Positions 2 through 21,239 of a stretch of 59,697 nucleotides of DNA are shown one piece after another (positions within the stretch are counted from its first letter, which is position 1; each line of letters starts with the position of its first letter). The notes below the pieces were generated by a model. That model was not told where the DNA came from. It worked only from the letters and a program-made list of their open reading frames with translations, and made no database searches. The DNA lies in assembly GCA_015490805.1 (NCBI GenBank), contig WFXC01000030.1, forward strand, positions 1 to 59,697, read 5' to 3'. Made by a program: the position numbers and the translations under genes. This stretch comes from Candidatus Kapaibacterium sp. GTDB lineage: Bacteria > Bacteroidota > Ignavibacteria > Kapaibacteriales > WFXC01.

Positions 2-1486
2 CCAACGAACACCCTGCACGTCAAGGCTGCCAGCAACCCACTGCGACTGGAAGGGTTGCAACCATTGAGTAATGCCGGAACGATCTTAGCCGTCGATGCC
101 AACGGCGTTGTCTATACCACCAGTGCCAGTTCCTTTACGGCATCGAACGCCTGGTCGCTGACCGGCAATGCTGGAACCAACCCGGCAAGCAACTTCCTTG
201 GGACCACCGACAACCAACCGCTGGTTATCAAGACCAACAATGCGGAACGGATGCGAGTGTTAGCCTCTGGCTACGTGGGTGTTGGGACCACCTCTCCAAC
301 CGCCCGGCTGATGGCAGTCGAAGATGCACCCGGACAGGCAGTGATGCGAATCCAGAATCTGGATGCCGCTGGCCTTTCCGGTATTGAATTCCTGAGTCAC
401 ACCTCTGCTGTAATGGGATACGTTGGGCTGGAACCCGGCGGCGGTGCTTTGCGCATCTGGAGTCAGTCGAATATGATCCGGTTCTATACCAACGGCGTAG
501 AACGGGTGCGAATCACGACCACCGGAAACGTTGGGATCGGGTCCTTAGACCCGCAATATCGGCTGCACATTGAAGGCGACGGAATGATGTACGCCTCTGG
601 AGAATTCGGGAAAGGCGCAACGATGCCAGAAGGAGCAAAGACGGCGTTCATCTGGAATCCGCGCAAAGCGGCATTGCGAGCAGGATCGGTGACAGCAGAT
701 CAGTGGAACGATGCTCAGGTCGGCGCTTACACTGTCGCTTTTGGTAAAAACACCGTTGCCAGTGGTGCATTTTCCGTTGCCGTTGGAGAAAACACTGTTG
801 CAGAGGGAACGGCTGCGTGGGTCGGCGGTCGGAATTTGCACTTGCTACCGGATGCAACGGGCACCTTCGCCTGGGGCAATACCGAACGTCCCACATCCGT
901 TGCAGCCAGCCACGCTTTCCTGATCGGTCCTGGAGACACGCCCTACCGTGTCGGGATCAACACCGCAACACCGACGTACGCGCTGGAATTGCCCAACGAC
1001 TCGCGAGCGAATGTGGGACAGGCACGAGCAAATGCGTGGCTGACATACGCAGATCCACGGATGTGGAGCACAACTGAACCCATAAGCGTAACCGGTGAGC
1101 TGTTGTCGCAACTCCAACCGCTACGATACCGTGATGTTGCAGGGAAGAGCGGGTTCAGCTTTGATCCTCAGCAACTGGCAGCGATTCTGCCGGAAGCGGT
1201 GGCGGTTCCCACAGATAGCTCGCAGCAGTGGAGCATTAACTATGCAGCCCTCATCCCTGTGCTGGTCGCAATGCTTCAGGAGCAGCAGCAGCAAATCCAG
1301 CAATTGCGGCAACAGAATCTGGCACTGCAACAGCAGGTAGCCGAAACGCAGCAACTCCGGAAGCGGCTGGCAAAGATGGAGCAGCAACTGTCAACGCTGG
1401 AACAGTTGCAACAGCAGGTTCGGTATTTGATCCAGCTCCAGCGTGAAGCACGTCCTGTTCCAACAGCAAGCAACGGCGGGAAATAA
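2..1486 (+). CDS. Tail-fibre-like surface protein with C-terminal S74-type chaperone domain (5' partial)
   Basis: The frame is open to the window edge, so the N-terminus lies upstream; an internal TTG at 56 is not a convincing start. Visible parts in order: repeats of the type found before tail-fibre ends (a TLHVKA motif at the very start, AERMRV and VERVRI units), a YadA-head-like segment rich in VAxG/VAEG around bases 720-880, then a region resembling the intramolecular chaperone (peptidase S74) domain from about base 1010 (LRYRDVAG, INYAALIPVL), ending in a glutamine-rich coiled coil. In this family the C-terminal domain trimerises the fibre and usually cuts itself off at an S-D-x-R-x-K motif; here the matching residues read ADPRMW (1049-1066), so autocleavage is probably lost. 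Such proteins are common as secreted products in Bacteroidota, and no phage genes are nearby. Exact role unknown. Confidence 0.75.
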   Translation, partial: PTNTLHVKAASNPLRLEGLQPLSNAGTILAVDANGVVYTTSASSFTASNAWSLTGNAGTNPASNFLGTTDNQPLVIKTNNAERMRVLASGYVGVGTTSPTARLMAVEDAPGQAVMRIQNLDAAGLSGIEFLSHTSAVMGYVGLEPGGGALRIWSQSNMIRFYTNGVERVRITTTGNVGIGSLDPQYRLHIEGDGMMYASGEFGKGATMPEGAKTAFIWNPRKAALRAGSVTADQWNDAQVGAYTVAFGKNTVASGAFSVAVGENTVAEGTAAWVGGRNLHLLPDATGTFAWGNTERPTSVAASHAFLIGPGDTPYRVGINTATPTYALELPNDSRANVGQARANAWLTYADPRMWSTTEPISVTGELLSQLQPLRYRDVAGKSGFSFDPQQLAAILPEAVAVPTDSSQQWSINYAALIPVLVAMLQEQQQQIQQLRQQNLALQQQVAETQQLRKRLAKMEQQLSTLEQLQQQVRYLIQLQREARPVPTASNGGK

Positions 1487-1625
1487 CGCTTCTGGAAGTG
1501 CACACTCTTAGGCGCGCTTGGGAGCGCATACTTCAGTGTGCATTCTTTGCCGGCGAAATCAGCGCTCCCGATAGGATGCTCCTGGAGCGCACGCTCCAAG
1601 GTACATTGCAATTGAAACAATTCCC
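1487..1625. repeat. Degenerate palindromic repeat island A
   Basis: This gap between the tail-fibre-like gene and hepT carries worn copies of the palindromes seen at 18645-18932 and 59298-59697. Recognisable pieces are a GCATACTTCAGTGTGC unit (1526-1541) and a perfect 7-bp stem TGGAGCG/CGCTCCA (1583-1598). It is less regular than the other two islands. Confidence 0.55.
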
Positions 1626-1635
1626 CCAACGGTCG

Positions 1636-1978
1636 TTAATGTTCCTCTGGGGGTATTAGAGGTTCAAGGAGCCGAATGAGGGTGGGGAGATCTTCCTGTA
1701 CAATTTGCCATATCCGCACTAAGTCGAGCTGGAAATAATCGTGGGCAATACGGTGGCGCAATGTGACAATCTCTCTCCACGGAATTTCGGGATGAGCAGC
1801 TTTCATTTCGTTCGACACTTTTCGTGCTAGCCTTGCCGATATTCTCCAATGCCTTAGCGATAGCATGCTGGTGGAAAGAGCTCTGTTGAAATGTCTTCCA
1901 TGTGAGCCCCTCGCTAAAATCTCTGGCTTCGCGGGCAGCAATTAGCATATCGAGAAGGTATGCTTCATCGCGCCACAT
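1636..1978 (-). pseudogene. hepT: HepT-like toxin, frameshifted
   Basis: Read from 1978, the frame starts [15 protein letters not shown] and follows the HepT (DUF86) fold to ALENIGKAS. It then loses homology and resumes one base out of frame at [15 protein letters not shown]. One surplus base near 1820-1825, perhaps in a run of four A on the minus strand, explains this. The second frame keeps the family's active motif R-X4-H-X-Y (RHRIAHDY) and ends at 1636. HepT is the HEPN-type RNase toxin of HepT/MntA modules, in which MntA adenylylates the motif tyrosine. The reading frame overlaps the end of mntA by 14 bases, the usual operon arrangement. As read, no full-length toxin can be made unless the ribosome shifts frame; a sequencing error is also possible. 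Confidence 0.8.
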
Positions 1979-2279
1979 AGACCTGCTCCAGATGAGTGAG
2001 AATATGATTGCGGCGGATATAGTTTTTGCTTTGCTCTACCATCCGGCGTTCCACTAGGTCTACCGTTCGTCCAAAAATAGTTTCCAGTTCACGCACCATC
2101 TGGAGCCAGTCCCGAAAGGACCAGGAGATCCCAGGTTGAAAAGTGACCAGAACATCCACGTCACTATCAGGACGGAAGTCTTCTCGCAGCGAAGAGCCGA
2201 AAAGAGCAAGTTCCTGAATGTGCCATCGCTTGCAGAATTTTTCAAGAGCGTCGCGGGAATACTGGATTTTCAATGGCAT
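1965..2279 (-). CDS. mntA: MntA-like nucleotidyltransferase antitoxin
   Basis: Small protein of about 104 residues with the minimal nucleotidyltransferase signature: FGSSLRE followed by the metal-binding D-x-D (DSDVDVLV). MntA antitoxins use this site to adenylylate a tyrosine of HepT and so silence the toxin. I chose the internal ATG at 2279 (MPLKIQYS) because a GGAGGG ribosome-binding site lies just upstream on the minus strand; a longer version from 2300 would lack one. The hepT reading frame overlaps its end by 14 bases. The antitoxin looks intact although its partner is frameshifted, a typical pattern for a dying toxin-antitoxin module. Confidence 0.85.
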
Positions 2280-2300
2280 TTTTTCCCTCCAGCGTTTCAA

Positions 2301-2510
2301 CTACCTGCACATCGGTGTCCCATTGGCCGAAGGTACATTGGAGAGATCCACGGAGGTTACTATTGGCAAAAACATCTTGTCTTGTGAAGCGGCGTTGACC
2401 TCCCGCTTGTGGTTCATAATACGGTAGATGCCGAAGTCCAGATCGGCGGTGTCAAACTGGAACAATTCCCGGAGCAGGTGCTGGAATTTTTTGCGAGCGT
2501 CCATATCCAT
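2301..2510 (-). pseudogene. N-terminal stub of a DNA methyltransferase
   Basis: The first 37 or so residues (LLRELFQF, then DLDFGIYRIMNHKR) match the start of large adenine-specific DNA methyltransferases of restriction-modification systems. After MNHKR the similarity stops and the frame runs through about 30 unrelated residues to a stop. A complete gene would be many hundreds of residues, so this is a remnant left by a deletion. It lies directly upstream of mntA on the same strand, suggesting a former defence cluster. Translation of the stub is possible but no function is expected. Confidence 0.7.
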
Positions 2511-2655
2511 TACTCAGAAAGTTGTTGCGATGCTAAGGAATTGCAAATTTACGCTGTTGCGCTAAGGTGCCCGGCACTCCGCTATCTGTGCTCGCTGGAG
2601 CGACTGAAGAGAGCCGGCAGAGAGCGCCGGGACGCTGCCCTGTGTGTTATCACTG
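2511..2655. other. Non-coding junction after truncated clpB
   Basis: These 145 bases lie between the clpB stop and the methyltransferase stub. I found no recognisable remnant of the ClpB second ATPase domain and no transposase or clear terminal repeats. It is the probable scar of the rearrangement that removed the 3' half of clpB. Confidence 0.4.
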
Positions 2656-3981
2656 TTATGCCGACGCTGGGGCTGCTTCCAGCTCCCGTAACAGCGCTGC
2701 TCGCTCGATTTCCAGTTGTCGGATGCGCCGCTCCAGTGCGTCCAGTTCTTCGGGCATAGAGTCGATTTCGATGCGGAGCTTGCTGGCAGCTTCGTCGATC
2801 AGATCGATTGCTTTGTCGGGCAGATACCGGTCGCTGATGTAACGGTCGGATAGCTCCGCAGCAGCAACCAGCGCAGCATCCGTGATGCGCACACCGTGGT
2901 GGACTTCGTACCGCTCTTTCAGTCCCCGCAGAATGGAAATGGTCTCCTCAACCGACGGCTCTTCAACCAGAATTTTCTGGAATCGTCGCTCCAGCGCCGG
3001 GTCTTTTTCAATGTACTTGCGGTACTCATCCAGGGTAGTAGCACCGATACATCGGAGCTCCCCACGGGCTAATGGCGGTTTCAGAATGTTGGCAGCGTCC
3101 ATACTGCCCTGCGCACTACCCGCTCCAACCAGGGTGTGGATTTCGTCGATGAACAAAATAATTTCCCCGTTGGATTCGACCACTTCTTCAATCACCGCTT
3201 TAAGCCGCTCTTCAAACTGTCCCCGGAAGGAAGTGCCAGCGACTAAGGCGGCTAAGTCGAGTTGTACAATGGTTTTGGTCTTCAGGTTTTCCGGCACATC
3301 GCCATTGACGATTCGCTGGGCGATCCCTTCTACAATTGCTGTTTTCCCGACGCCGGGATCACCAACTAATGCTGGATTGTTTTTCGTTCGCCGTGAAAGT
3401 ACCTGTAAAACGCGTCGGATTTCTTCTTCCCGTCCGATGACCGGATCCAGTTTGCCCTGCCGGGCTTCATCGTTCAACACTCTACCGTATTTCTTCAGCG
3501 CCTGATACTTCTCTTCTGCCGCCTGGTCCGTAACCCGGCGCGATCCCCGGAATTCCTGGAGCACCCGCAGAATTGTTTCCTTCGTTGCACCTTGTGCTGT
3601 CAGAATCCGCCCAGCTTCTGTTTTGGATTCTGCAAGGGCAATGAGCAGGTGTTCAGTGCTGACAAACTCGTCCTGCATTGACTGCGCTTCCTGTAGCGCT
3701 GCTTCCAGTACCGATACCAGCGTTTTGGACAGATATTGATTCCCCAGCGCCGCTCCACTTACCTTGGGCAGTCGTTCCAGTTCACGTTCCAGTTCTGATT
3801 CGATGTAGTCAACGTTCGCTCCCAGCTTGAGCAGCATTGGGCGCACAATGCCGGAGCTATCTTGCAGCAGTGCATAAAGGAGGTGCTCCGGTTCGATCGC
3901 TTGATGGCTGTGGGATGCCGCAATTTCCTGCGCTTTCTGCATAGCATCCTGGGCTTTCAGCGTGAGCTTTTGAAAATTCAT
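2656..3981 (-). CDS. clpB: ClpB disaggregase, N-terminal half only
   Basis: 441 residues against roughly 860 in normal ClpB. Present: the double Clp N-domain (1-145), the first AAA+ module with Walker A GDPGVGKT (207-214), Walker B LFIDEIH (276-282) and the arginine-finger region ERRF (331-334), then the beginning of the coiled-coil middle domain ([18 protein letters not shown]). It stops after [11 protein letters not shown] with TAA and two further in-frame stops close behind. Missing are most of the middle domain, the whole second AAA+ module and the C-terminus needed for hexamer-based threading. ClpB normally rescues aggregated proteins together with DnaK. The start overlaps the upstream glycosyltransferase stop by ATGA. 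The retained half has intact motifs and no internal damage, so truncation is recent or the short form is still used. Confidence 0.9.
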
Positions 3982-12370: not shown

Positions 12371-13996
12371 ATGAGGAAAAAACGGAAGATCTGCTGGTGG
12401 ACTGCTATCGCGTTGTTCCTGGGATACACGATACCATTGCTGGCACAAACGTTTCGTCCGGCACGTAGTGAAGAAGCGTTACTTCATCAACTGGCAGCCC
12501 GGTATCCTGAAATTATGCGGATCGATACGATCGGGGTAACACATTCAGGCATTCCAATCCTTGCCGTGAAATTGTCGGCAATGCCTGCTGATACGCTCCC
12601 AGCCGTGCTCTTTGTTGGTGGTATCGCGCCGACCGATATAACCAGTCCGGCAGTGTGCGTGGGATTGCTGCAACGGTTTTTGGCGCGCTGGGATTCGGTC
12701 CAAGCGCTGTTGCAGGGACGAGCGGTGTATTTTATCCCCCGCCTTTCGCCGGAACCGCTGGAAGGATTTTTTGAGCGTCCGCAGCGGGCGTACGTGGGGA
12801 ATGTGCATCCTGAAGATGAAGATCGGGATGGGCAGGTAGATGAGGATGATGTGGAGGATCTGGATGGCGATGGGGTCATCCGGTGGATGCGCATCTATGA
12901 CGTCCCGGAGGCTGAGTGGACCTACCATCCGGATGACTCAGCGCTGGCGCAGAAAGTCGATCGAGCTCGGGGAGAAGTAGGTGCATTTCAATTTCTGCCC
13001 GAAGGTCGGGATAATGACGGCGATTTGCAGATCAATGAGGATCAGCGTGGAGGAGTCAACATAGATCGCAACTTCACGCATCGCTATCAACCGTATCGTG
13101 CACATCACGGTCGCCATCCTTTTTCAGAACCAGAAACTCGTGCCATAGGGTTTTTCCTCTTCCAGCACCCGGAGATTCTGGTTGTTTTTGGCTGGACTCC
13201 ATATGACAACATCCACTTTCCGTGGCGTTTGCGGTATCCAGAGAACCCAACAAAGCCGAATCGATTTCGGAAAGATTCCCTTGCGTATCGCCGATTGGTG
13301 CAACGACTGGATTCTCTCTGCCCATTTGTTGGCGAAGAAACAGTGCCACCGGGAAGCTTCGGAGAGTGGGTGTTCTATGATGCTGGGCGGTTGAGCCTCT
13401 GTGCTCCAGCGTGGGCGTATCCAGCGGTTGACACAATGACGCTACCGGGAGAGATTGAGCCGGTCGAAATTCGAGCATTGCGGTGGGCGCAACAGCAGCA
13501 GGATACCGTTCTGTTCCGCCCGTGGCGGTCGATAACACATCCAGATTTTCCAGATCAGCGCGTGGAAGTCGGTGGCTTTGCTCCCTTTGCACTCTGGAAT
13601 CCACCGCCGGACACTCTCCCACTGCTTCCACAGCGGTGGATGCCGGTTGCACTGGAACTGCTTCGTCAATTGCCCCGCCTGCGCCTTTCTGCTCAGGTGA
13701 AGCAGGAACAGGCGGGTGTGTACCGGGTGGATTTGGTTGTGCGCAACATTGGTGAATTGCCAACCCACACGGTAGTTGGTAGAGCAGTGCGCGCGCTCCG
13801 ACCGTTGCACGTGCGGGTTCATCTGGCGAAAGGGCAGCATTTGCTCAACCGCCCGAAACACTTTGTGTTGCCGCAACCATTACAACCAGGAGAGCAGCAG
13901 CGGCTGTCGTTGTGGATCGTTGGCCGCGGAACGACAAAGATAACGGTTGGTTCTTCATCAGCAGGCAGGCAAACAGTGTCAGTGAGGCTGCAATGA
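12371..13996 (+). CDS. M14-family pseudopeptidase, secreted
   Basis: 541 residues with a signal peptide (basic MRKKRK, hydrophobic core, cut near PLLAQ). It follows the same plan as its downstream neighbour: a carboxypeptidase-like fold, aspartate-rich calcium-type inserts (DEDRDGQVDEDD and DLDGDG; later EGRDNDGD) and a C-terminal beta domain. The catalytic residues are gone: the zinc motif H-x-x-E is APTD (86-89), the second zinc histidine aligns with a GWTPYDN stretch, and the catalytic glutamate aligns with alanine in CAPAWAYP. NIDRNF and SEPETRA, structural motifs of the family, are kept. It therefore cannot be a standard metallopeptidase; a binding or regulatory partner of the active copy is a reasonable inference. 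Stop overlaps the next start by ATGA. Confidence 0.85.
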   Translation: MRKKRKICWWTAIALFLGYTIPLLAQTFRPARSEEALLHQLAARYPEIMRIDTIGVTHSGIPILAVKLSAMPADTLPAVLFVGGIAPTDITSPAVCVGLLQRFLARWDSVQALLQGRAVYFIPRLSPEPLEGFFERPQRAYVGNVHPEDEDRDGQVDEDDVEDLDGDGVIRWMRIYDVPEAEWTYHPDDSALAQKVDRARGEVGAFQFLPEGRDNDGDLQINEDQRGGVNIDRNFTHRYQPYRAHHGRHPFSEPETRAIGFFLFQHPEILVVFGWTPYDNIHFPWRLRYPENPTKPNRFRKDSLAYRRLVQRLDSLCPFVGEETVPPGSFGEWVFYDAGRLSLCAPAWAYPAVDTMTLPGEIEPVEIRALRWAQQQQDTVLFRPWRSITHPDFPDQRVEVGGFAPFALWNPPPDTLPLLPQRWMPVALELLRQLPRLRLSAQVKQEQAGVYRVDLVVRNIGELPTHTVVGRAVRALRPLHVRVHLAKGQHLLNRPKHFVLPQPLQPGEQQRLSLWIVGRGTTKITVGSSSAGRQTVSVRLQ

Positions 13997-15762
13997 ACTG
14001 GCAGAAGCTCTGGTGGCTGGTTGTGGTTATCCTTATCAGCTTTCCCGGCAGAGAGAGCAGGGCACAGACCCAAAGTGTGGCGATGGTCCCGTCGGCGCTG
14101 AAAGCCTTAGGGGCACCGAACAATCCGAAAATTGAGGTGGCGTGGAATCGGTATTACGACTGGGCAGGGGTTACAGCGTTAGTTCATCGCTTTGCTGAAA
14201 CCTTTCCCCATTTATGCCGATTAGAGCAGATTGGCACATCCTACGGAGGACGCCCACTATGGGCTTTGACCATTACCAATTTCCAGAAAGGGAAACCGGA
14301 AGACAAGCCGGCGATGTACATTGATGCTTCCATCCACGCCAATGAAATTCAGGCAGTGGAGGTTGCGTTGTATACGGCGTGGTTTCTCCTGGAAAGCTAT
14401 GGCAACAATCCATTTATCACGGAGTTGCTGGACACCCGCACTTTCTACATTGTTCCGGGACAGAGTCCTGATAGCCGCGATCGGTTTATGCACAGTGCGA
14501 ACAATCCCCATAGTCCCCGCTCTGGACAGGTGCCGCGCGATGATGATGGCGACGGGCTGATCAATGAGGATCCACCGGATGATCTCAACGGGGATGGGCA
14601 CATTACGCAGATGCGAGTTCGAGCGCCAGGAGGGCGGTGGAAAGTGGATCCGGAAGATCCCCGGCGAATGGTCCGGGCACGCCCTGACGAAGAGGGGGAG
14701 TATTATCTGTTCTGGACCGAAGGGTACGATAATGATGGCGATGGGCAGATCAACGAAGATGGGGATGGGTATTACGATCCGAATCGGAACTGGGGATGGA
14801 TGTGGCGCCCACATTATGTGCAGTACGGTGCCGATTGGTTCCCGTTTTCGCTCCCCGAAACGAAAGCGGTTTCCGATTTTATCAAGTCTCATCCTAACAT
14901 CCTTGGAGGACAATCCTATCACAATGCCGGGGGGATGATTTTGCGGGGACCGGGGGCGAAAGAGGATCGGATCGAATCAGAAGATTTGAAACTTTTCGAT
15001 CTGATGGGGAAGTTCGGGGAACAGATTCTGCCCGGCTATCGATACCTGGTGACATACAAGGATCTGTACACTGTCTATGGGGGAGAAACGGACTGGATGT
15101 ACGGTGCAGAAGGGATTCTCCCGTTTGTCAATGAGCTGTGGACGCCATACAATATGTTCCGGAAGCAGTATCCCAAAGACAACTGGTTTGGGGCGGGCGA
15201 AGATCAGTATAAATTTGATCGGTATCTGCTCCTGGGCGAAGCCTTCGTTGATTGGCAACCCGTCGCTCACCCTCAGTATGGAATGGTAGAAGTGGGGGGA
15301 TTCAAGAAAACCTATACACGGATGCCCCCCTCCTTCTTGCTGGAAGAAGAATGCCATCGTAATATGATTTTTACGCTCTGGCACGCCTACCATTTGCCGC
15401 TAATTACGCTGGATTCTGTTCAGGTTATTCCCTTAGGGCAACAGCGCTACCGCGTCACGCTGATCATTCACAACCACCGGGCGTTTCCCACCCGTTTGCA
15501 GGTTGATGTCAAAAACGGGATTACCCGACCGGACATCGTTACACTGCAGGGACTGCCAGTTCTGGCGGGGGGAGTACATCGGACGGTGTTTTCGCCAACT
15601 TTTGAGGCGCAGCGGGCGCATCCTGAGCGTCTTAAAATTGAACGCATCCCTGGTTTCGGCGCTGTTCGGGTGAGCTGGATAGTTCGGGGTACAGGTCCGA
15701 TACAGATAACCTTTGATTCGGTTAAAGGGGGAAAATACCAGAAAAGGGTAGTAGTCCGATGA
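13993..15762 (+). CDS. M14-family zinc carboxypeptidase, secreted
   Basis: 589 residues with a signal peptide (to about ESRAQ, residue 25). Zinc ligands H115 and E118 in IHANE, H310 in QSYHN, and the putative catalytic glutamate E381 in VNELW are in place. Aspartate-rich loops (DDDGDGLINED, DLNGDG, NDNDGDGQ-like runs around 183-260) resemble calcium-binding inserts. A beta-rich C-terminal domain follows. Family members hydrolyse C-terminal peptide or amide bonds outside the cytoplasm. No T9SS tail is visible, so it may be periplasmic or use another sorting route. Start chosen at 13993 where it overlaps the preceding stop; expression is probably coupled to the inactive paralogue. Confidence 0.9.
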   Translation: MNWQKLWWLVVVILISFPGRESRAQTQSVAMVPSALKALGAPNNPKIEVAWNRYYDWAGVTALVHRFAETFPHLCRLEQIGTSYGGRPLWALTITNFQKGKPEDKPAMYIDASIHANEIQAVEVALYTAWFLLESYGNNPFITELLDTRTFYIVPGQSPDSRDRFMHSANNPHSPRSGQVPRDDDGDGLINEDPPDDLNGDGHITQMRVRAPGGRWKVDPEDPRRMVRARPDEEGEYYLFWTEGYDNDGDGQINEDGDGYYDPNRNWGWMWRPHYVQYGADWFPFSLPETKAVSDFIKSHPNILGGQSYHNAGGMILRGPGAKEDRIESEDLKLFDLMGKFGEQILPGYRYLVTYKDLYTVYGGETDWMYGAEGILPFVNELWTPYNMFRKQYPKDNWFGAGEDQYKFDRYLLLGEAFVDWQPVAHPQYGMVEVGGFKKTYTRMPPSFLLEEECHRNMIFTLWHAYHLPLITLDSVQVIPLGQQRYRVTLIIHNHRAFPTRLQVDVKNGITRPDIVTLQGLPVLAGGVHRTVFSPTFEAQRAHPERLKIERIPGFGAVRVSWIVRGTGPIQITFDSVKGGKYQKRVVVR

Positions 15763-17438
15763 ATCGTTTGCGGTCGTTGCTTCATCGTCTGGATGGGCGG
15801 GGATATGGGGGATATAAGGAACTTTTGCATCAGGAGTTTCACTTTCCGGGATTTCATTTGCGCTTTCTTCGCGTGCAACCCGATCCATTTGCTCCGCCCA
15901 GTGTTGTGCAGATTCGGATGGATCAACAGGTGGCAAAGTATCCGACCGCGCTGATGGAGTTGCCGGTGCAGCGGACAGCGCTGCGGGACTTCCTCCAGCG
16001 GCGCTTCTGGCAGGCACTCCGTCCGTATCCGGAGCTCTCCATCGATCCTCCGGGCAATGAGATTCTGGACCGTACCGGGTGCCTGATCAGCAGTGATGAG
16101 GTTGTTGTGCGGCTGACCGTTCAATTGCCCGCATCGGGACGCCGCATCCGGGGGTATCAGGCAGCCACGTTGCTGTGTGAACAGTTGCCTGCTGTCGTGA
16201 TGGAAGTGTTGCCGTATGATCGTCAGCCGCTGGACCGTTTGCAGAAGCATCTGGAAGTTGCCATTGATGCGGAGACAATCCGCTCCCGCCTGGCAGAAAT
16301 GGGGTTGGTGGCATTCATTGCGAATGGAAGCATTTTGCCGCGGGAAAGTGGGATTTCCGAAAACCCAATGCCCTCCCCCCCGGCAGTGCCGTTTCAGTCC
16401 CCCCCGGAACTGGAATGTGAGTTTGAAGTGCCGCACCACGGTCGCATCCGGGGAATGGGGATCCCGGAGGGAGTAACCCTCATCGTTGGAGGGGGATTCC
16501 ACGGTAAGTCTACCCTGCTTCGAGCGCTGGAACGGGGGGTCTATCTCCATATCCCTGGCGATGGGCGGGAGTTTGTGGTAACCAATCCTACGGCGGTGAA
16601 AATTCGGGCTGAAGATGGACGGTGTGTTCATAATGTGGATATCTCGCCGTTTATTGCCCATTTACCGATGAAAATTGACACCGCTCACTTTTCGACCGAA
16701 AACGCCAGCGGTTCCACTTCGCAGGCAGCCAATATCATCGAGGCGCTGGAGGCGGGAGCAGAGGTGTTGCTGATCGACGAAGATACGTCGGCAACCAATT
16801 TTATGATCCGGGATGCCCGGATGCAGGCATTGATTGCGAAAGATAGGGAACCAATTACCCCCTTTATCGATCGCGTCCGGCAGCTCTATGAAGAGCACGG
16901 GGTGTCGACCATTCTGGTGATGGGGGGGAGCGGCGATTATTTCGATGTTGCTGATACTGTCATTGCGATGGTTGAATACCGACCCTTGAATGTGACGGAG
17001 CAGGCAAGAGCGGTTGCACAGCAATACCCGACGCATCGAAAAGTCGAGGCTGAAACGCCCTTTCCTTTTCCTCCACCGCGGGTGCCAAATCCCTCCCGAT
17101 TGCAATTGCGTCGTGGTAAGCGAGAAATTGCAATTAAAGCAAAGGGGATGGAAACAATTGTTGCCGGGAAAGCAGCCATCGATTTGCGGTTTGTTGAGCA
17201 ATTAGTGGAAGATGGACAGCTCAATGCTTTAGCCGCAGCCTTAGAGCTGGCACTGCGGAAGCAATGGATTGATGGTCGGCATACGCTCAATGAAATTTTG
17301 CATCTCCTGCGCGATTTTCTGGAGCATCGGGGAGTGGAAGGATTGGCAACGGCGCCGCATAACTTTGCTACTTTCCGGATGCAGGAATTTGCTGCTGTGC
17401 TGAACCGATGGCGAGCACTACAGATGCGTTCTTCATAG
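15759..17438 (+). CDS. ABC-class P-loop ATPase (PF09818 type)
   Basis: 559 residues. Walker A GGGFHGKSTLL, a signature-like STENASGSTSQAANI segment, Walker B VLLIDEDTSATNFM and a later MGGSGDYFDVAD loop match the family annotated as predicted ATPases of the ABC class, which stand alone without membrane domains. The family's role is not established; it has been linked by context to nucleic-acid or stress functions only loosely. The start overlaps the M14 stop by ATGA, making a three-gene unit with two secreted proteins, an association I cannot explain. Confidence 0.88.
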   Translation: MNRLRSLLHRLDGRGYGGYKELLHQEFHFPGFHLRFLRVQPDPFAPPSVVQIRMDQQVAKYPTALMELPVQRTALRDFLQRRFWQALRPYPELSIDPPGNEILDRTGCLISSDEVVVRLTVQLPASGRRIRGYQAATLLCEQLPAVVMEVLPYDRQPLDRLQKHLEVAIDAETIRSRLAEMGLVAFIANGSILPRESGISENPMPSPPAVPFQSPPELECEFEVPHHGRIRGMGIPEGVTLIVGGGFHGKSTLLRALERGVYLHIPGDGREFVVTNPTAVKIRAEDGRCVHNVDISPFIAHLPMKIDTAHFSTENASGSTSQAANIIEALEAGAEVLLIDEDTSATNFMIRDARMQALIAKDREPITPFIDRVRQLYEEHGVSTILVMGGSGDYFDVADTVIAMVEYRPLNVTEQARAVAQQYPTHRKVEAETPFPFPPPRVPNPSRLQLRRGKREIAIKAKGMETIVAGKAAIDLRFVEQLVEDGQLNALAAALELALRKQWIDGRHTLNEILHLLRDFLEHRGVEGLATAPHNFATFRMQEFAAVLNRWRALQMRSS

Positions 17439-19934: not shown

Positions 19935-21239
19935 TTACCGCTGTATTTGAATGCCACGTCCCTTCGACGGTCCCCACGGATTGGACAGGAACACCAGGTA
20001 ATGCCCTGCCGCTAATTGCGAGGGTAACGGCACTTCAATCTGGAAGGAGCCGGAAGGTATTTCGCCTCGCCACAACTCGGCGATGCGTTTGCCCGTTCCA
20101 TCCAGCAGGATCAAAGCAGCGTCTGATATTCGTTCAGGAGAGGTAACAGAGACAAGGAGCGCGTCGGTGCCGGATTGCTGTACTTCGAGCTGGAGTCTGG
20201 TTGGAGTTGCCGAAGATTCGGGTGTTACCTGCTTTTTCGCTAATAGTGCAGCCATTTTTTCTGGATTGTGGAGAACGTTTTCTGTTTCCGAATACCGGGC
20301 GAAGTAATCTTCTTTGATTTTGTCACTTAAAAGGATTGCGGTATGGGGTGGGAGAGTACCGGAAGCAGCCAGACCGGAGTCCAGATAGGCGCGCAACTGT
20401 TCGTAGTAGGCTGCATAGAGGGAATCCCAATCATCGCCGCGAATGCGCCAGTGCTGCCATCCAGTTGTGATCGATACACTGTCAAAGTCTCGCAGGGTCG
20501 AAAGTGAGCACCACGACCATACCCGGAAGAGCTTCAGACCGAGCGGCGTGGGTCCATAGCGATAGGGAACAATTCGGATGAAAGCTTCGGTTCCAGCGTA
20601 CTCGGAAGGCAGCGATCGAAAATGGCGAGTCTGGAGGATTTCGCTTCCAAACGGGCGAACATACCAGGAGTCGGGATTGGGCAACATTCCAATGCTGTCC
20701 AGCACTGCCAGGCGCTGTCCATCGGAAGCGCGACACAGTTCAGTCACAAAGATCACCGTGTCCAGCACCCATCCCGGCGGAGTGATCCAGAAGTGATCAT
20801 CCCAGCGGCGCACGAGCGCATCCCATTGCGATTGCGGCATAATCTCTTTCTCAGTGCTGAAGACCCGCAGCAGTGAACGGAAGAAGAACAATTGGGCATT
20901 TTCGGGAATGGTAAAGGTCTTTGTCCGAGCAAAGGCAGCCAGAAATTCATCTTTTCCCGGTTCGGTTTCTCCTGACAGTCCTTCGTCTGGAACTGGCTGA
21001 TAGATGATGGGAATAAACCGTTCTGTGCCATCGGCAAACAGGAGGCGAAACTCTCCGATCATACATCCAACAGTAGCAGTATCGAACTGATCTTCAATGC
21101 TGAAATACATCAGCTTCTCTTCATCACTGAGTTTAATGTGAAAAATCGGGCGCGGGTAGAACTGATCAATCCATCGCTGGGCGAAGAGCGAAAGACTGGT
21201 GCACAGAAACAGTGTGATCAGGCGAGTTGCTTTCATCAT
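19935..21239 (-). CDS. Secreted protein with T9SS C-terminal sorting domain
   Basis: 434 residues. Signal peptide MMKATRLITLFLCTSLSLFAQ. The last 75 residues have the pattern of a type A T9SS sorting domain: LILLDGTGKRIAELWRG, then SGSFQIEV, then LAAGHYLVFL and a final basic strand. This tail is recognised by the Por machinery, which carries the protein through the outer membrane. The body (about 25-340) is not recognised; it is rich in aromatic residues and aspartate, and a SDKIKEDYFARYSETE stretch precedes a low-complexity linker. Monocistronic. PorX (39194-40768) and a PorW-like protein (51012-53021) elsewhere in the window agree with a T9SS organism. Confidence 0.75.
   Translation of the reverse strand: MMKATRLITLFLCTSLSLFAQRWIDQFYPRPIFHIKLSDEEKLMYFSIEDQFDTATVGCMIGEFRLLFADGTERFIPIIYQPVPDEGLSGETEPGKDEFLAAFARTKTFTIPENAQLFFFRSLLRVFSTEKEIMPQSQWDALVRRWDDHFWITPPGWVLDTVIFVTELCRASDGQRLAVLDSIGMLPNPDSWYVRPFGSEILQTRHFRSLPSEYAGTEAFIRIVPYRYGPTPLGLKLFRVWSWCSLSTLRDFDSVSITTGWQHWRIRGDDWDSLYAAYYEQLRAYLDSGLAASGTLPPHTAILLSDKIKEDYFARYSETENVLHNPEKMAALLAKKQVTPESSATPTRLQLEVQQSGTDALLVSVTSPERISDAALILLDGTGKRIAELWRGEIPSGSFQIEVPLPSQLAAGHYLVFLSNPWGPSKGRGIQIQR

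Follow-up and report, generated by a model that had tools for sequence, protein, structure and literature searches.

Carboxypeptidase T of Thermoactinomyces vulgaris and the carboxypeptidases A and B (CPA and CPB), all of peptidase family M14, are known enzymes for which we know of no dead partner gene, and M14 carboxypeptidases are normally treated as self-sufficient. Here we analysed two tandem genes, gene 1 (protein P0001) and gene 2 (protein P0002), in a stretch of 59,697 nucleotides from Candidatus Kapaibacterium sp. (positions 1 to 59,697 of the forward strand of contig WFXC01000030.1, assembly GCA_015490805.1), which is called the window below and is contig 30 of a host genome of 2.67 Mb. 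Both products are predicted to have the same fold as the carboxypeptidases named above, and gene 2 has the full zinc-binding, general-base and carboxylate-binding set. In contrast to the known enzymes, both have a pair of Asp-rich inserts and, at the C-terminus, an additional beta-rich region, and gene 1 has lost the site. Across several phyla the dead copy has been retained together with the live one in nearly every case, suggesting that the two most likely make up one two-part enzyme, and we consider it probable that this is a secreted M14 metallocarboxypeptidase, located in the periplasm or outside the cell, that obligately consists of two subunits, one of them non-catalytic.

M14 proteins that have lost the active site have been described in eukaryotes: domain III of carboxypeptidase D (CPD), AEBP1/ACLP, CPXM1/2 and Ecm14 are pseudopeptidases, and CPD domain III has been proposed to present substrate to the active domains linked to it (PMC11266112). 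As these proteins are portrayed in the passages of that review on which we draw, gene 1 resembles them in having an M14 fold without the active-site residues, but it encodes a separate bacterial protein, whereas CPD domain III is eukaryotic and lies in the same chain as its active domains; no bacterial M14 pseudopeptidase is named in those passages. Among bacterial metallopeptidases, TldD/TldE is a heterodimer of paralogues that is active only with both proteins present, TldE being devoid of metal ligands (PMC5810440), and the M16B heterodimers (MPP alpha/beta, SPH2681/SPH2682 and TTHA1264/1265) consist of paralogous subunits with one zinc site, encoded by neighbouring genes in bacteria (PMC12731061). 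Both folds, a clam shell in the case of M16B, are unrelated to that of genes 1 and 2, and interaction is proven for both systems, whereas we infer it for genes 1 and 2. TldD/TldE, the M16B pairs and CPD domain III are precedents for the two-subunit reading. Dead/live metallopeptidase pairs were already known, but an M14 pair over several bacterial phyla appears to be new; neither a bacterial M14 pseudopeptidase nor a dead/live M14 pair was found among 5.39 million open-access papers, subscription papers and the MEROPS non-peptidase lists being outside the scope of that search.

Genes 1 and 2 are M14 carboxypeptidase paralogues by their sequences. Both matched the Pfam profile PF00246 (Peptidase_M14), gene 1 at 3e-17 and gene 2 at 2e-37; this was the sole match at E values up to 1, and neither a TldD nor an M16 profile was matched. 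The two proteins align at 29% identity over 542 positions (2e-36), that is, nearly over their full length and including the C-terminal beta-rich region, and an NCBIfam search gave no assignment. The features of the pair, with their positions in the window, are:

12371..13996, + strand: gene 1 (P0001), predicted secreted M14-fold pseudopeptidase, 541 aa (PF00246, AlphaFold2, Ka/Ks)
12371..12445, + strand: gene 1 signal-peptide-like N-terminus, about residues 1-25 (sequence)
12626..12637, + strand: gene 1 APTD (A86-D89), replacing the zinc motif HxxE (alignment)
12815..12883, + strand: gene 1 first Asp-rich DxDxDG insert, about residues 149-171 (across 75 relatives D153 and D163 never vary and D151 almost never)
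13001..13054, + strand: gene 1 second Asp-rich insert, about residues 211-228 (E211, D214 and D216 invariant in 75 relatives)
13196..13210, + strand: gene 1 TPYDN (T276-N280), replacing the third zinc ligand His ([DN]N[LI] conserved in the clade)
13406..13408, + strand: gene 1 P346, replacing the general base Glu (alignment)
13993..13996, + strand: ATGA overlap of the gene 2 start and the gene 1 stop, 4 bases (sequence; kept in both congeners)
13993..15762, + strand: gene 2 (P0002), predicted secreted M14 metallocarboxypeptidase with an intact site, 589 aa (PF00246, AlphaFold2, Foldseek, Ka/Ks)
13993..14064, + strand: gene 2 signal-peptide-like N-terminus, about residues 1-24 (sequence)
14335..14346, + strand: gene 2 HANE (H115-E118), zinc ligands
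14518..14520, + strand: gene 2 R176
14539..14604, + strand: gene 2 first Asp-rich DxDxDG insert, about residues 183-204 (D183, D187, G188, D193 and D197 invariant)
14719..14769, + strand: gene 2 second Asp-rich insert (EGYDNDGDGQINEDGDG), about residues 243-259 (E243, D246, D250, N254 and D256 invariant)
14782..14787, + strand: gene 2 N264-R265, carboxylate-binding pair
14920..14922, + strand: gene 2 H310, third zinc ligand
15067..15069, + strand: gene 2 Y359, substrate tyrosine
15133..15135, + strand: gene 2 E381, general base

All eight site residues of gene 2 (H115, E118, H310, E381, N264, R265, R176 and Y359) are invariant in 74 relatives. We take N264/R265 to correspond to N144/R145 of CPA, Y359 to Y248 and E381 to E270, and R176 is likely the counterpart of R127. 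Gene 2 therefore has the residues of an M14 enzyme (HxxE...H, general base, N/R and Tyr), from which carboxypeptidase activity with zinc is predicted. The aligned changes in gene 1 are HANE to APTD (A86, D89), YHNAGG to TPYDNI (T276) and NELW to APAW (P346), and the substrate Tyr is also absent; gene 1 belongs to M14 by descent, as its profile match and predicted fold indicate, without having the residues of an active peptidase. The original prediction, made from the DNA alone, had described tandem M14 peptidases overlapping by ATGA, with signal peptides, aspartate-rich inserts and layout in common, the second retaining H115, E118, H310 and E381 and the first with the whole site replaced. The profile matches, the mutual alignment, the hydrophobic signal-like starts, the two DxDxDG inserts in each protein and the overlap agree with this description, and R176, N264, R265 and Y359 can be added to the retained residues of gene 2. 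As for gene 1, the replacements of HANE and of the His region stood, but the Glu had been read as replaced by Ala, and the aligned residue is Pro346, flanked by Ala345 and Ala347.

Among the relatives, a hydrophobic N-terminus was present in 69 of the 75 gene-1 relatives and 71 of the 74 gene-2 relatives, and the DxDxDG motif was kept in 73 of 75 and 73 of 74, respectively. The inserts are calcium-like by sequence resemblance and may bind calcium. Gene 1 starts with an ATG that has AGGAG upstream.

When 185 proteins of at least 430 aa were sorted into gene-1 and gene-2 types by profile score alone, the full site was found in 0 of 95 gene-1-type proteins and in 88 of 90 gene-2-type proteins, the other two of which were one reading HELE and one truncated. 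This contrast indicates that the site loss in the gene-1 type is not a matter of chance. In a 192-protein tree with an outgroup of other M14 proteins, the gene-1-type (91) and gene-2-type (89) proteins formed one clade each, with Shimodaira-Hasegawa-like approximate likelihood ratio test (SH-aLRT) support of 98 and 99, and the support for these clades was 97-99 across two trees. When single-copy relatives were added in a later tree, those with an intact site (SOLO, INT) all grouped with the gene-2 type, and a site-less planctomycete group of 12 proteins (the DS group) joined the gene-1 side, making up 103 proteins with a support of 93. These support values came from quick searches and several branches were long, so that the exact root of each clade is unsure. 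The simplest account of the sequences would be one ancient duplication and one site loss, and the loss in gene 1 is best explained as single and ancient.

A homologue of gene 1 with an intact HxxE...H...E site, which had been named beforehand as an observation that would speak against a pseudoenzyme, was looked for in the gene-1 clade (91 proteins, or 103 including DS) and none was found; all intact relatives (gene-2 type, SOLO and INT) were outside it. The scan patterns comprised VE[VI]GG... and the NRN region and not the zinc and base positions, so that they would have let through a gene-1 homologue whose site is intact.

On the gene-2 side, at one locus (L138; G222:C50, 499-2229) the copy after a truncated dead gene reads HELE, with the third zinc ligand His changed to Leu, and an intact copy comes next; the HELE copy represents another loss of the site, a local one, this time within the gene-2 lineage. 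Eight loci (L130-L136 and L139) hold a single-copy M14 subfamily from Bacteroidota, with proteins of 606-694 aa that reach about 335-360 bits against the gene-2 profile. They retain HxxE and the base Glu, but seven of the eight align with DTRVPMH at the third-ligand loop and with HR at the NR pair.

A scan of a genome collection seeded with six gene-1 proteins yielded at least 80 loci. Among the 80 matches listed, the NCBI phyla were Bacteroidota (53), Planctomycetota (14), Gemmatimonadota (4), Ignavibacteriota (2) and Verrucomicrobiota (2), the remaining five, KSB1 and Aminicenantes among them, being without a phylum call. The dead gene was upstream of the live one on the same strand in all 76 listed loci with both genes, which covered at least six phylum-level groups, and the intergenic gap had a median of 8 bp and was within 150 bp in 75 of the 76. 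Gene 1 stands by itself in the remaining four; in one of them (L070) the contig ends there, and the other three (L052, L053 and L071) belong to the lineage, described below, in which the pair is unlinked. No conserved third gene was found beside the pair across the loci, suggesting that the pair is the unit.

Genome counts were made independently of the seed scan, separating pair-type from other M14 proteins by a gap in bit score, in a sample composed in part of metagenome-assembled genomes (MAGs). In the window's class (294 genomes), gene-2-type proteins were present in 20 genomes and gene-1-type proteins in the same 20. In the phylum Bacteroidota (395 genomes), pair-type gene 2 (at least 690 bits) was present in 37 genomes, gene 1 in 36 and gene 1 alone in none; 35 of the 37 have a full or long gene 1, that of G222 is cut by a contig end, and in the exception, G411, 14 bases separate the start of gene 2 from a contig end. 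For the planctomycete class to which G606 belongs, 121 genomes were counted, and pair-type gene 2 was found in 60: 59 genomes reached at least 650 bits, and G693 has a shorter match. Gene 1 is directly upstream in 59 of the 60; in the exception, G722, gene 2 begins 225 bases from the contig end. Finally, in three Ignavibacteria-type genomes (G025, G057 and G616) the genes are on different contigs and both are kept, and this retention without linkage points to a functional tie rather than to hitch-hiking. Paralogous genes that co-occur, one of them site-less, are the arrangement seen in TldD/TldE and M16B, and by analogy their products may form a physical heterodimer.

The survey of homologous loci proposed with the original prediction thus extended the pair and the lost residues well beyond the genus, and the failure of conservation in relatives that would have told against the prediction did not appear. 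The conserved pair and the uniform site loss also favour its view that an inactive gene kept beside an active one is a functional partner, whose role may be activating, docking or inhibiting. An assembly or frameshift artefact was rejected, because the arrangement recurs in two further congeneric genomes and in many isolate genomes. Two live-gene matches (G550:C2 683387-685126 and G132:C314 3824-5557) have one in-frame stop each (TAG and TAA, respectively).

Structure prediction of each protein alone, also suggested beforehand, gave M14 folds for both. The AlphaFold2 model of gene 1 (75-sequence alignment) had a mean predicted local distance difference test score (pLDDT) of 92.2 and a predicted template modelling score (pTM) of 0.91, and that of gene 2 (74 sequences) had values of 90.0 and 0.90. 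Carboxypeptidase T was matched by the gene 1 model with VIA-align (Z 30.1, 2.5 A over 283 residues) and by the gene 2 model with Foldseek (2.5e-22). The confidence of the gene 1 model together with its match suggests a folded M14 domain without a site and not debris. The ratios of non-synonymous to synonymous substitution rates (Ka/Ks, NG86) among three congeneric genomes were 0.108, 0.111 and 0.147 for gene 1 and 0.045, 0.046 and 0.118 for gene 2; gene 1 is under purifying selection. The pairwise distances of the two genes were correlated (Mantel r 0.93, 70 pairs), and their slope indicated that gene 1 has evolved about 1.4 times faster than gene 2.

The invariant columns of gene 1 in 75 relatives were mostly in the Asp-rich inserts, together with the VEVGG motif and scattered scaffold residues. 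At the dead site, the first ligand position was E or D in 59 of 77 clade members and the second was His in 36; [DN]N[LI] followed the third ligand position, Trp stood beside the base position in 65 of the 77, and R or K occupied the position of R265 in 61. Such clade-specific preferences suggest that the pocket was re-shaped and not simply relaxed, which would be compatible with a structural subunit but equally with the docking of substrate or with a new ligand.

According to the two-subunit reading, gene 2 would be the zinc-binding catalytic subunit, which does the cutting, and gene 1 a dead paralogous subunit in which the fold and the Asp-rich scaffold have been retained. Gene 1 would most likely pair with gene 2, stabilising it and presenting or selecting its presumed substrate rather than inhibiting it. 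Some points weigh against this reading: the sequence of gene 1 alone does not tell an activator from an inhibitor; a natural fusion of genes 1 and 2 was not found among the loci compared; simple co-inheritance would also produce the Mantel correlation, which alone is no proof of contact; and gene-1-like DS proteins occur outside the pair in planctomycetes, so that the dead fold can serve without a gene-2-type live partner. Since a dead/live pair is retained over several bacterial phyla, a sizeable set of proteins labelled by Pfam as zinc carboxypeptidases would not be peptidases, and gene 2 homologues assayed alone may look inactive or mis-specific; the pair would also be a clean, assayable case of an enzyme paralogue becoming an obligate subunit.

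Of the other explanations, the one that survives best, though we regard it as unlikely, is that gene 1 is an independent protein that binds a ligand (a peptide or a fragment of the cell wall) and shares a pathway with gene 2 but forms no stable complex with it. The residues that the clade conserves at the former active site (E/D, [DN]-N, Trp and R/K) and the existence of the DS offshoot without an adjacent live partner are consistent with it, but the near-obligate 1:1 co-occurrence and the adjacency argue for a tighter dependence. It is followed by an explanation that we also find improbable, in which gene 1 would act as a dedicated inhibitor or zymogen-like chaperone, filling the active-site funnel of gene 2 during export until it is released. 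A dead gene that comes first and is translationally coupled would suit a guard made before its enzyme, the common fold could allow docking, and co-occurrence is strict, as such a role would have it. However, the known M14 inhibitors, several of which appear as partners in the structure-search matches of gene 1, are small unrelated proteins or N-terminal prodomains and not full-length paralogues; no clade-wide inhibitory tail was identified, and what is conserved lies at internal positions of the scaffold and the pocket.

It is very unlikely that gene 1 has acquired a changed chemistry, with the remodelled pocket ([ED]xx[HD], [DN]N and Trp) as a new active or metal site. Although the replacements are not random, for example E/D at the first ligand position and, in about half of the clade, His at the second, no catalytic-type set of residues is invariant in the pocket, the invariant columns being mostly those of the Asp-rich inserts and VEVGG, and P0001 itself has Ala86 and Thr276 at two pocket positions. 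A decaying duplicate retained by chance, which the loss of all catalytic residues and the faster evolution of gene 1 might suggest, was rejected as practically refuted by the Ka/Ks of 0.11-0.15, the ancient loss and later retention across phyla, the predicted intact fold and the co-occurrence.

In the DS group, GGxDGxS replaces HxxE. At L156-L161 and L163 a second M14-like gene directly follows the DS gene (for example, 92-1462 and 1357-3252 on the minus strand at L156), and L162 has the DS gene only. The second gene also lacks HxxE in the copies read (L142-L144), so that the tandem apparently has both copies dead. A wider reading, which we put forward tentatively, would make the gene-1 clade an old lineage, spread over several phyla, that converted the M14 fold into a non-catalytic binding subunit, forming with a live M14 protein a two-subunit secreted carboxypeptidase and, in the planctomycete DS group, with a second site-less M14-like protein a heterodimer used wholly for binding or sensing.

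The closest named relatives of gene 1 among the matches listed were its counterparts in Candidatus Kapaibacterium MAGs (94-96% identity). In scans for promoters and terminators, the counts did not exceed those of shuffled sequences. An ABC-class ATPase gene (PF09818, ABC_N and MRB1590_C; 15759-17438, + strand) overlaps the end of gene 2 by ATGA; it adjoins the pair in all three congeneric genomes and is not beside the pair elsewhere. Farther along the window, a 434-aa protein with a signal-peptide-like N-terminus and without a Pfam match at E 0.001 is encoded at 19935-21239 (- strand). The same genome contains one further classical M14 protein (L001; G000:C40, 10028-10867), in an open frame of 806 aa that matched PF00246 at 1.3e-56.

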